From an uncultured Victivallales bacterium (GTDB lineage Bacteria > Verrucomicrobiota > Lentisphaeria > Victivallales > UBA1829): DNA of 64,000 nt. The notes under the pieces are model-generated. The model was not told the DNA's origin, searched no databases, and saw only the letters and a program-made list of their open reading frames with translations. The number at the start of each line of letters is the position of its first letter. Within the stretch, counting starts at the first letter, position 1. Both the position numbers and the translations under genes were made by a program. Shown one piece after another: positions 33,463-38,335 of the stretch. Location of the stretch: positions 1 through 64,000 of the forward strand of contig CALXRI010000015.1 in assembly GCA_944390795.1 (NCBI GenBank), in the 5' to 3' direction.

Positions 33463-35283
33463 ATGTTCAGAATCACGACATTCCGCGATTACCGGGAATA
33501 TTCCCCGGCGGCCCGGGGGAGGGTTCTCGCGCGCATCCGCGACGCTTCCTTCCACGCGGTCCGTTTCCGGCTTGACCGTGCCGTGACGGAGAGTGCGTTT
33601 CACCGCTACGATGATTCCTTCGCGGATTCCTTTTTCGAAGACATTGCCGCTGCGGGACTCAAAGCGGTTCCCGTTCTTTCGTTTCATACGCCGCCCTGGG
33701 CGCGCGACTCGGAACCATCGTTCAATGATCCCGGGACGTGGCGGAATGTCCGTCTCTTTCTGGAACATGTCGTGACCCGTTACCGGAACCGCCCGGAACT
33801 GGCGTTTTTCCAGGTGATCTTCAAACCTTCCGCAATTCCGGATTCCGATCCGGCCTTCCGGGAGTATCTGATGCGCAGATATCCTTCCCTGAAAGAGTTG
33901 AACCGTTCGCTCAATACATGTTACTCCGCACTGGAGGATATTTCGCTGAAGGACTGTGCCGTATTCGGTATCCGGATGGCGATGGAGCGGCGGCTTTTCC
34001 GCCGTCGGGCCTACGAACGGAAACTGGCCGATCTGAAGGAGACGATCCGCGCCGTTTCTCCGCATACGCTTTCCGGCACGGTTTTCCTTTCGCGCCGTGT
34101 TGCCTGTTCCGACTGTCTCTCGGCGCTGGCGCAGTTCCAGGAGACCGCGGACCGGTGCGCGGGTCCGTATCTGATTCACTGGAATCCGTCTCCCGGAACA
34201 CCTGTGCAGGAAGTGGAGCTCTGCGCCTGCGCAAGCGGGGCGTGCGGAATGGTTTTCCCTGATGTCTGCGGAACTTCCGTCCCGTTTTCTGAAACGGCCC
34301 ATGCGCATCCGGATCCGGACGCAGTCCGGCGGCTTCCGAGTGTGTTTCTGGAAAAATGCCGCCGCCTGTGCACCGGATTTTCCAATCCCGCGGAAGTCGG
34401 ACTGCTCCACAGCCGCCGCACCGGCCGTCTGTCTGAAGTCCGCAAGCAGAATGAAAACATCCACAAGCGTTCCCTCCGTGCCTGGTGCAGAGCGTTGACG
34501 GCCGCCTCTCTTCCGTTTCACATTGTGGAGGAGGATGCGGAACTTCCGCAGAACCTGAAACTGATGATTCTTCCGGCCGTCGCCGCGCTGGATGATGCCG
34601 ATGCCGAACGTCTTCTTTCCTTCGCCTGGGAGGGCGGAACGCTGTTCTGCGAAGGCGGATGCGGTCATTACAACGGACTTGGCGCCTGTCTGGATCCCGA
34701 ACACAGATTCCTGGCGGAGGCAACCGGTGTCATGGAATGCCCGGAATGCGTAACCCCGGGGAACTTTCGTATAAAATACGGTTTTGGAGCGGGAACTTTT
34801 CTCCTGAGCGCCGGAGAAGTCTTCACGCCATGGCTGCCTGTTCCGAAATTTTCGGAAACGCTTGTCCCGCTGGATGGAAAACGCGATCTTCTCTGCCGCG
34901 TTCCGTACGGGAAGGGGAAAATCATACTCTGCGCTCCCAGTTTCGGCGCGTACTGCCGGGAGAAACGGAATACCGGGTTCGAGGGGTTTGTGCGGAATGT
35001 CTGTTCTTCGGCTGGCGTCCATCCGCCGGTCAGGATCCTGAAGCCTGCCGGCAGCGCGGCCCCGCTTTTGAAGGTTCTGGAGAATGCGGAGCGCCGGATG
35101 GTGTTTGTGTTTTTCTCTTCGGCGGCATCCGGCTGCGAACTGGAATTTCCTGCCGGATTCTGGAAAAAGCAGCTGGTCGGCGACATGCTGCGCGGCGGAA
35201 CGGTGCGGATCGTGCGGCGGGACCGTGTGCAGAGGATGAAGCTGAAGGCGTCTCCGGGAAAAGCTGCTGTGCTGTATGAATGA
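33463..35283 (+). CDS. GH42-like protein with altered catalytic site (probable non-hydrolase)
   Basis: 606 aa, no signal peptide. The N-terminal half (about 1-270) aligns by eye with a GH42 beta-galactosidase barrel, e.g. FREYLMRRYPSLKELNRSLNT matching the segment after the acid/base Glu. At the expected Q-I-D-N-E-F/Y site it reads QVIFKP (117-122), so the acid/base Glu is Lys121. The C-terminal part (about 345-520) looks like the amidotransferase-like domain (LLSFAWEGGTLFCEGGCG, PYGKGKIILCAPSFG). It starts 8 bases after the lipoprotein gene and so appears to end the metal operon. A binding or regulatory role is possible. Confidence 0.65.
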   Translation: MFRITTFRDYREYSPAARGRVLARIRDASFHAVRFRLDRAVTESAFHRYDDSFADSFFEDIAAAGLKAVPVLSFHTPPWARDSEPSFNDPGTWRNVRLFLEHVVTRYRNRPELAFFQVIFKPSAIPDSDPAFREYLMRRYPSLKELNRSLNTCYSALEDISLKDCAVFGIRMAMERRLFRRRAYERKLADLKETIRAVSPHTLSGTVFLSRRVACSDCLSALAQFQETADRCAGPYLIHWNPSPGTPVQEVELCACASGACGMVFPDVCGTSVPFSETAHAHPDPDAVRRLPSVFLEKCRRLCTGFSNPAEVGLLHSRRTGRLSEVRKQNENIHKRSLRAWCRALTAASLPFHIVEEDAELPQNLKLMILPAVAALDDADAERLLSFAWEGGTLFCEGGCGHYNGLGACLDPEHRFLAEATGVMECPECVTPGNFRIKYGFGAGTFLLSAGEVFTPWLPVPKFSETLVPLDGKRDLLCRVPYGKGKIILCAPSFGAYCREKRNTGFEGFVRNVCSSAGVHPPVRILKPAGSAAPLLKVLENAERRMVFVFFSSAASGCELEFPAGFWKKQLVGDMLRGGTVRIVRRDRVQRMKLKASPGKAAVLYE

Positions 35284-35353: not shown

Positions 35354-38335
35354 CTAGAACTCCTCCGGCGACTGGGTGGTCGAGTGTTTCATGACGGACG
35401 ATTCATTGTCAGTGAGGACGCGCAGGAACGGCATCTGCCGCAAAGGCTCGATATCCTTCAGATTCTTCGGAATGTTCAGATATTCGAGAGGTTCGATCAG
35501 ATAAACCGGCGAGATATCCCTGAGTTTCGTGCAGTTGCCGAGATCCAGCATTAAGAGCGGCATGTCCTTCAGCAGTCCGATGTCGGAAATCTCCGTGGAG
35601 TCAATCAGCAGCATTTCCAATGCGAGTCCCCGCAACGGCTCAATGTCCTTCAGCGGATTTTTTCCGACGTCCAGCACTTTCAGCGTTTCCATGCCGAACA
35701 GCGGCTGAAGAGAGGAGATGCTGTTGCCGCGCAGATGCAGTTTTTCCACTGTGGCGGAACGGAGCGCGTCGATTGCCGAAATCCGGTTGTTCGAGGCGTT
35801 CAGGGACACCAGAAGCATGCCGCGAAGCGGAGTGAGATCCCTGACACGGTTGTCCGCGCAGTTCAGACTGGTCAGCATCATGCCGCGCAGCGGGGTCAGA
35901 TCGGCGATTTCGTTGTTGTGGCAGCTCAGAACTTCCAGCGGCATCTTTTCGATTCCCTTGAGGGAGGTCAGTTTGTTGTTCGAACAGTCCAGATAGACAA
36001 GGGGAAGCGAGGCGATCGGCTCCAGGGAACGCAGTCCGAATCCGGAAATGTCCAGGCGCTTCAGGTTTTTCGTCCGGGCGATCAGCGTCATCAGCGCATC
36101 GGCGGCGTCTCCGGGGAGTTCATGATGAGGCAGCTGAAGGATCCGGGTGACAATATTGGTATTCGGATTCAGTTCAAAAACCTCGCGCATCAGCTGAAGC
36201 GCCTGTGCGTAATCGCCGCTGCGCCAGAGAAGAGCCGCATCCAGTTCCAGGATCCGGTCGCGGTAGCGGAATTTCGTAAACTGCGCGGCGATGCGTTTTT
36301 TGATTTCGACCAGCGCGCTGGTCCGCTGCCCGGGATCGGAGAGTTTCGAAGCCGCGGTCATATAGGCCTTGACCAGCGCCATTTCAGCAAGCTGCGTTCT
36401 GGCGTAGCTGTCCGCGATCTGGAGATATTTTCCGACGGCGGCTTCTGCAAGGCCTGCCTCAAGCAGAGTGTCTCCGGCGATCAGCGGTGTTGTTTTTTCC
36501 GGGATTGCCAGACGGTAAACGGCCAGCGAGCGGATCACGGTGCCGTTTGCAAAGGCCCGGATTCCCACTCTGGCAAGCCCTTCTCCGGTTGGCGGGAAAT
36601 AATCAATGGCGCTGACGGAATGCGTCTTGCCGATTGTCAGGGAAAGCCGGTCGTCCCGCCGGACTGCGGTGATTGTGACATTCTCTCCGGGTGCGAGCTT
36701 CGTTTCCCCGGAACTGACGTATTCGACGGAATACGGGTCGTTGACCTTTGCAATCACATCCTTCGTGCCGCCGAATCCGCTGACGATGAATGTATATCCG
36801 TGCGGAATCTGCCACCATTCCCGGCGCGGGGAAATATGGCTGTTGACGGCAATTTCGAACGCCTCCAGAACTTGCGGTGCGGATACGGTAAGCACTACTT
36901 TGACGTTGCCGTGCGTCTTGGCATTCAGCCAGAGCCAGGTGCCTTTGGACGTTTCAAGCCCCGCGGGTGTAAGCTGCCATTCCGGTGCGGGCTTGTTCAG
37001 ATTGGCGTCCATGAAGGAGAGCCCTTCCAGCGTCGCATCCGGATCGGTGAACGTCTGCTGATAAACGGGAATCCAGTCGCTCTGCCAGCGGGAAATTTCA
37101 AAGTATGCGTAGAGAGAAAGAAAAACGGCCAGGCAGAGGGTTGTCGCGATGGAGGCGACCAGAAGGCGGTGACGTCTGACCAGAAGCAGGAATTTCCGGA
37201 TCATGCCGGCCTTTTCGGCTTTGGTGTCGAATCCGTCGATGTAGGCAATTACTTCGTCCCGAAGTTCCTTGACCGAGGCATAGCGGTTGGCCGGATTTAC
37301 GCTCATCGCCTTCAGAATCACCGCTTCGATGCCGTGCGGAATCTCCCGCCCCGGAACCCGTTCGCTCGGTTTTACGATGTTTCCGTAGATGGTGTCGTGA
37401 AGCATGCTTTTCAGATCCCCCGGTTCGAGCGGATCCTTGTAGGTCACCATCGCGTAGAGAATTGCGCCGAGCGCGTAGACGTCGGTGCGGACGTCACTTT
37501 TGCTGTTTTTTCCGGCGGCCTGTTCGGGAGCCATATAGCCGGGCGTGCCGTTCATGACGCCGTCGAGCGTCAGCTTGAAGTCGGTATAGCCTTTTTCATG
37601 GGCGGTTCGTCTGGAACCGGGAGCGCTCGGCGGATTCTGCCTGGCGGAGACGGGGCGTGCCAGCCCCCAGTCGAGAATCAGCACTTCTCCGAATTCCCCG
37701 ATCTGCACGTTTTCCGGTTTCAGGTCAAGATGAATGATTCCCTTGGAGTGGGCGAATGCCGCGCCGTTGCAGATCCGGAGATAGAGACGCATCAGCGCTT
37801 CAAAGGTGTAGTTTTTCAGATAGGCCGGATTGCCTTCATCCATTTTTTTCAGGAGCGAGGCAAGTGACTCGCCGCTCAGGAGCTTCATTGTGAAGTAAGG
37901 CGATCCGGAGGAATCGATTCCGATGTCGTGGACAGGTACGATGTTCGGATGTTCGAGGCTGGCCGTGACGCGCGCTTCCTGAATGAAACGGAGGATTTCC
38001 GCGCGGGAGCGATGTTCGAAATCCGGCATCAGGGCCATTGCCACATCGCGCATCGTGTCATTGTCGTGGACCTGCAGCACCATTTTCATTCCGCCGCGCC
38101 CGATGCTTCTGCGGAACTTGTATTTATCCGGCGGTTTGACGGAAAGTTTCGCGGTTACAAAGTCGTCGATGTCCAGCGAACTCGGATCGAGCTTTACCGT
38201 CGCCTCCATATCGGATTTTCGCATTCGTTCCCGCGCCCTGATTTCGTGAATTTCATTCCGCACGTTGTCGATGGCCTGCGATCCGGAGGTTCCGGTCACG
38301 GGCGGACGGGAGTCGATGTCATTTCTGTCAGTCAT
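35354..38335 (-). CDS. Transmembrane Ser/Thr kinase with leucine-rich repeats and a WNK-like ATP site
   Basis: 993 aa. The kinase domain (about 72-370) has the glycine loop GRGGMK (79-84), with Lys84 where the third Gly is expected. The beta-3 motif reads VAMAL (98-102), so the usual lysine is Ala101. The alpha-C Glu120, HLDLKPEN (202-209, catalytic Asp204) and DWG (222-224) are kept, as is APE. One membrane helix (about 390-411) leads to a beta-rich domain (about 420-610), a helical repeat region (about 625-740) and about ten leucine-rich repeats (about 755-970, e.g. LDCSNNKLTSLKGIEKMP). It follows the radical SAM gene by 7 bases. Confidence 0.9.
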   Translation of the reverse strand: MTDRNDIDSRPPVTGTSGSQAIDNVRNEIHEIRARERMRKSDMEATVKLDPSSLDIDDFVTAKLSVKPPDKYKFRRSIGRGGMKMVLQVHDNDTMRDVAMALMPDFEHRSRAEILRFIQEARVTASLEHPNIVPVHDIGIDSSGSPYFTMKLLSGESLASLLKKMDEGNPAYLKNYTFEALMRLYLRICNGAAFAHSKGIIHLDLKPENVQIGEFGEVLILDWGLARPVSARQNPPSAPGSRRTAHEKGYTDFKLTLDGVMNGTPGYMAPEQAAGKNSKSDVRTDVYALGAILYAMVTYKDPLEPGDLKSMLHDTIYGNIVKPSERVPGREIPHGIEAVILKAMSVNPANRYASVKELRDEVIAYIDGFDTKAEKAGMIRKFLLLVRRHRLLVASIATTLCLAVFLSLYAYFEISRWQSDWIPVYQQTFTDPDATLEGLSFMDANLNKPAPEWQLTPAGLETSKGTWLWLNAKTHGNVKVVLTVSAPQVLEAFEIAVNSHISPRREWWQIPHGYTFIVSGFGGTKDVIAKVNDPYSVEYVSSGETKLAPGENVTITAVRRDDRLSLTIGKTHSVSAIDYFPPTGEGLARVGIRAFANGTVIRSLAVYRLAIPEKTTPLIAGDTLLEAGLAEAAVGKYLQIADSYARTQLAEMALVKAYMTAASKLSDPGQRTSALVEIKKRIAAQFTKFRYRDRILELDAALLWRSGDYAQALQLMREVFELNPNTNIVTRILQLPHHELPGDAADALMTLIARTKNLKRLDISGFGLRSLEPIASLPLVYLDCSNNKLTSLKGIEKMPLEVLSCHNNEIADLTPLRGMMLTSLNCADNRVRDLTPLRGMLLVSLNASNNRISAIDALRSATVEKLHLRGNSISSLQPLFGMETLKVLDVGKNPLKDIEPLRGLALEMLLIDSTEISDIGLLKDMPLLMLDLGNCTKLRDISPVYLIEPLEYLNIPKNLKDIEPLRQMPFLRVLTDNESSVMKHSTTQSPEEF

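Follow-up and report, generated by a model that had tools for sequence, protein, structure and literature searches.

A WNK-like lysine swap in a putative receptor kinase family of PVC bacteria

Kinases without a beta-3 lysine

The closest described systems are the eukaryotic WNK kinases, in which a lysine stands at the third glycine of the glycine loop (K233 in WNK1), beta-3 has none, and the active site keeps its alpha-C Glu, HxD and DxG. Catalysis by WNK1 requires the lysine at this place (PMC1821047; PMC4718504), and in a 2007 survey Wnk was the only functional ePK family without a beta-3 lysine (PMC1821047). A positive charge was also proposed to have moved, from position 72 to 55, in the CAK-chloro ELKs (Kannan 2007, PMC1821047); unlike the present family, these are small-molecule kinases with Arg55 and Met72, and their alpha-C Glu is replaced by Phe. 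The bacterial pseudokinase families ActPs1-3, GLW, CP1, DLHK, and DYD (PMC12599244) likewise have a non-canonical VAIK site, but none was described there with the swap or from PVC bacteria, and HxD and DxG are intact in the kinases studied here. We found no description of a swap family in the literature, though the 42-family bacterial kinase atlas (PMC12233097) might contain one; an open review built on this atlas mentions neither PVC bacteria nor the swap.

The kinase gene investigated here (table 1) lies in a window of 64,000 nucleotides from an uncultured Victivallales bacterium. Its product shares the lysine position with the WNKs and differs from them in having beta-3 Ala instead of Cys, HLD instead of HRD, DWGL instead of DLGL, and other residues at the chloride site; moreover, it is a predicted LRR membrane receptor whose nearest kin are bacterial VAIK kinases. 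With PknB and the PASTA-type receptor kinases it shares the fold and the arrangement of a kinase, a single transmembrane helix and an outer domain, but the lysine is relocated, HLD and DWG are present, and a lectin-like, TPR-like, and LRR outer part replaces PASTA. The features of Hanks-type kinases were found (PF00069, kinase fold, alpha-C Glu, HxD Asp, Asn, and DxG Asp), with the VAIK lysine absent. The protein is most probably a PknB-like bacterial receptor kinase and not a WNK, and its mode of holding ATP is likely WNK-like.

Table 1. Features of the kinase gene, with positions in the window (residue numbers refer to the protein)
Feature	Positions	Strand	Basis
Transmembrane Ser/Thr kinase gene, 993 aa, relocated ATP lysine	35354..38335	-	ORF translation, Pfam
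Kinase domain (Pkinase PF00069), residues 72-353	37277..38122	-	Pfam E 1.3e-30; AF2 pLDDT 91.3, pTM 0.89
Glycine loop GRGGMK, residues 79-84	38084..38101	-	Translation and alignment
Lys84 (codon AAA), third loop glycine position, equivalent to WNK1 Lys233	38084..38086	-	Alignment, AF2
VAMA, residues 98-101; Ala101 where the VAIK lysine is expected	38033..38044	-	Alignment
Alpha-C Glu120	37976..37978	-	Alignment; Glu in 46/46 family rows
Catalytic loop HLDLKPEN, residues 202-209; Asp204 retained, HRD Arg replaced by Leu	37709..37732	-	
DWGLA, residues 222-226 (DFG position); Trp223 at WNK1 Leu369	37658..37672	-	Alignment
Predicted transmembrane helix, residues ~391-412	37100..37165	-	Kyte-Doolittle peak 2.2
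Beta-sandwich, galectin-like, residues ~421-609	36509..37075	-	AF2 and weak Foldseek matches
TPR-like helical region, residues ~618-754	36074..36484	-	AF2; sub-threshold TPR_2
Leucine-rich repeats, residues ~760-975	35411..36058	-	LRR_4 (Pfam); internalin and SDS22 folds

Alignment, predicted structure and gene neighbours

The WNK1 sequence was checked letter for letter against PDB chains before it was aligned with our kinase and PknB of Mycobacterium tuberculosis. In this alignment, Ala101 fell on Cys250, the site of the normal VAIK lysine, Lys84 fell on Lys233, and Glu120, Asp204, and Asp222 corresponded to Glu268, Asp349, and Asp368 of WNK1. The initial annotation had read a WNK-like exchange of the lysine in GRGGMK...VAMA, with the rest of the active site intact, and both readings held: the residues stand where it had placed them, at sites equivalent to those of WNK1. 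In the AF2 model of the kinase domain, Lys84 (model residue 25) is the first residue of beta-2, the element that also holds K233 in WNK1. The best match among solved structures was PknB, at Z 31.9 with an rmsd of 2.0 across 262 residues.

A second AF2 model, covering residues 412-993 (pLDDT 85.8), consisted of a beta-sandwich, TPR-like helices and LRR. Foldseek matched it to the LRR of internalin and SDS22 and, weakly, to the galectin-like 1oq1 and an AbnA domain. A transmembrane peak above 1.8 on the Kyte-Doolittle scale followed the kinase domain in 83 of 86 family members. A radical SAM gene ends 8 bases ahead of the kinase gene, and a SpoU methylase gene also lies upstream; this order is conserved within the genus, and in several other genera one or other of the two neighbours lies near the kinase. 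The convergent neighbour (33463-35283, plus strand) encodes a beta-galactosidase trimerisation domain (Glyco_hydro_42M). Another kinase of the window (L002, 20567-21328, plus strand) has the loop Gly and VALK, with Ser at the position aligned with the alpha-C Glu.

Conservation and distribution of the swap

When 61 related genomes were searched at the protein level without use of the motif, homologues at 29-94% identity were recovered. Lys84 and Ala101 were both kept in all of the best 30, one of which is split by a stop codon. With 60 additional homologues and the kinases of the window's own genome, 103 kinase rows were collected independently of the motif. Lys84 and Ala101 occurred together in 46 of them. 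A beta-3 lysine was present in 53 rows (52 in the Fisher table), and the loop position was Gly in 44 of the 53. No row had both lysines, and a single degenerate kinase had neither. The two sites therefore swap together: 46 rows combined Lys with Ala (K/A rows), none had Lys at both sites, 52 had the beta-3 lysine alone and 1 had neither (Fisher p = 1e-27, phylogeny ignored). For the initial annotation, a VAIK lysine kept in close homologues would have refuted the reading, and no such case was found: all homologues above 44% identity were K/A; VAIK relatives start at about 44% identity, as a separate group. Judged from the aligned sequences, the Lys84/Ala101 swap is a conserved family trait and not a quirk of one protein.

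The alpha-C Glu, the HxD Asp, and the DxG Asp were each present in 46/46 K/A rows. The beta-3 position was Ala in every K/A row, and Cys, a feature of WNK, was absent. HLD was found in 43 of the 46, the remainder having HMD or HFD; other rows mostly had HRD or HCD. The replacement of HRD by HLD in this family had gone unmentioned in the initial annotation. Eight positions were specific to the family (M83, K84, M100, A101, D137, P146, L203, and G266), of which K84 was the sole gain of a basic residue. In an alignment of members chosen by the motif, K84 and A101 were invariant against a mean column identity of 44%. Within the genus, dN/dS was 0.01-0.03, at partly saturated synonymous sites.

The family occurs in Lentisphaerota, Kiritimatiellota, and Verrucomicrobiota, and is patchy in Planctomycetota. 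Counts obtained with exact DNA patterns are lower bounds, because such patterns overlook other codons and letters (e.g., IAMA); with this limit, 72 of the 388 genomes in the phylum-level group carried GGMK-x13-VA[ML]A and none its reversed control, which is more than chance would give. Among the matches listed, the kinases on named genome contigs were nearly all from Lentisphaerota, Kiritimatiellota, Verrucomicrobiota, and, in a few cases, Planctomycetota. A stricter pattern was found in at least 2 of the 199 Planctomycetota genomes searched, and in at least 1 of 189 from Myxococcota. In Acidobacteriota (149 genomes) and Actinomycetota (149), a broad swap pattern gave 40 matches with loci, none of them a kinase, and a few further matches without a locus. 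The viral contigs searched contained no relative. One genus of the same class as the window genome had 4-8 K/A kinases in each of 3 sampled genomes (G228, G244, and G343). Some members are marine (Lentisphaera, Pontiella, and Rubritalea), and many others come from gut samples.

The swap was also found in a Myxococcales kinase (L234) and its two orthologues (L235 and L236, 71-72% identity), which read GxGGMK...VALA with HRD and DFG intact. The next relatives of L234, at 34-44% identity, had the canonical loop Gly and VAIK in 8/8 cases with a readable motif. In tree tests, a single swap lineage joining the PVC and myxobacterial groups was rejected (p-AU 0.021); at least two bacterial origins of the swap are therefore probable, separate from that in WNK. 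Inside PVC, with the trait columns masked, a tree with all K/A kinases as one clade had a higher likelihood than the free quick tree. Several origins within PVC were also considered, with at most three changes on free quick trees with weak branches, and were set aside in favor of the likelier one-clade tree. The initial annotation had asked whether the swap was a convergence or a common bacterial subfamily, and our results point to both, namely a large bacterial family and a separate myxobacterial case.

Activity, chloride sensing and ancestry

We consider it quite probable that the protein is an active Ser/Thr receptor kinase, transmembrane and PknB-like, from a PVC family with a WNK-type pocket. 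Its lectin-like, TPR-like, and LRR regions, on the other side of the membrane, would receive a signal. Lys84, at the start of beta-2, would contact the ATP phosphates and pair with Glu120 of helix C in place of the missing beta-3 lysine, Ala101 providing the space that Lys84 needs, and phosphotransfer would proceed from this relocated-lysine pocket. With HLD the kinase would be non-RD, and its regulation would not depend on a contact between the HRD Arg and a phosphorylated activation loop. We counted the loss of this Arg against this explanation, and also the fixed Trp in DWG, both being unusual; DWG is shared with the VAIK relatives, so the Trp did not arrive with the swap.

Under the common rule, a kinase without a beta-3 Lys is a pseudokinase (PMC12599244), and the K/A family has lost the HRD Arg as well. 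Lys84 and Glu120 might then aid ATP binding or keep the fold rigid, with signalling but no phosphotransfer. We regard this as unlikely: the beta-3 lysine is lost, but Lys84 has been relocated, and the catalytic HxD and DxG Asp and the alpha-C Glu persist throughout the K/A rows. Moreover, members without catalytic residues are also without Lys84. In two kinases of one relative genome (L198 and L200, G039), the glycine loop is gone, together with Lys84 and catalytic residues; L198 reads NLN and EWG, and L200 reads NLD and NWT, keeping the catalytic Asp but lacking the His and the DxG Asp. They are decayed at both places, and therefore Lys84 was lost jointly with catalytic residues. L198 and L200 look like true pseudokinases derived from the K/A family. 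Both have a beta-3 lysine, regained or retained, which we also counted against an active family. The initial annotation had said only that the kinase may be active, and the conservation of its residues makes activity likely.

Its hint at chloride or osmotic sensing fared worse. A swap that opens a halide site behind ATP would make these kinases sensors like WNK; the lysine position is identical, it was proposed to create room for the halide in WNK1 (PMC4718504), and some members live in the sea, though many are from the gut. In WNK1, L369 and L371 are at the chloride site, and the L369F mutant is chloride-insensitive (PMC13397483). In our kinase, V135, F148, W223, and L225 stand at the positions of WNK1 F283, L299, L369, and L371, so only one of the four (L225) matches. 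The chloride site of WNK1 is lined by all four of these residues. A WNK-like chloride sensor is very unlikely, because three of the four residues differ and Trp223 occupies the L369 position; the Trp was, as noted above, not part of the swap. Common descent with eukaryotic WNK, by horizontal transfer or from a shared ancestor, would explain the identical swap and the similar GRGxxK text without convergence. We give it hardly any credence: PknB heads both the sequence and the fold matches, the nearest relatives are canonical bacterial kinases, and WNK1 fell outside the K/A family in the tree, though as a single WNK on a long branch.

Returning to the active receptor kinase, we incline to the view that the WNK swap is a repeatedly reachable and fully working alternative ATP pocket, which arose at least twice in bacteria in addition to eukaryotes and founded a large, active, non-RD receptor family in PVC bacteria that residue rules would call dead. 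If the family is active, Wnk would no longer be the sole functional ePK family without a beta-3 lysine, the swap would be convergent, and the move of the lysine could be separated from WNK's chloride sensing. The VAIK lysine alone would be a poor ground for calling kinases dead, and the standard rule would misjudge this family. Finally, three canonical HRD kinases (L183, L184, and L201) read GGMG...VAMK, and this combination, at a weak placement in the tree, perhaps represents the stage before the lysine swap.
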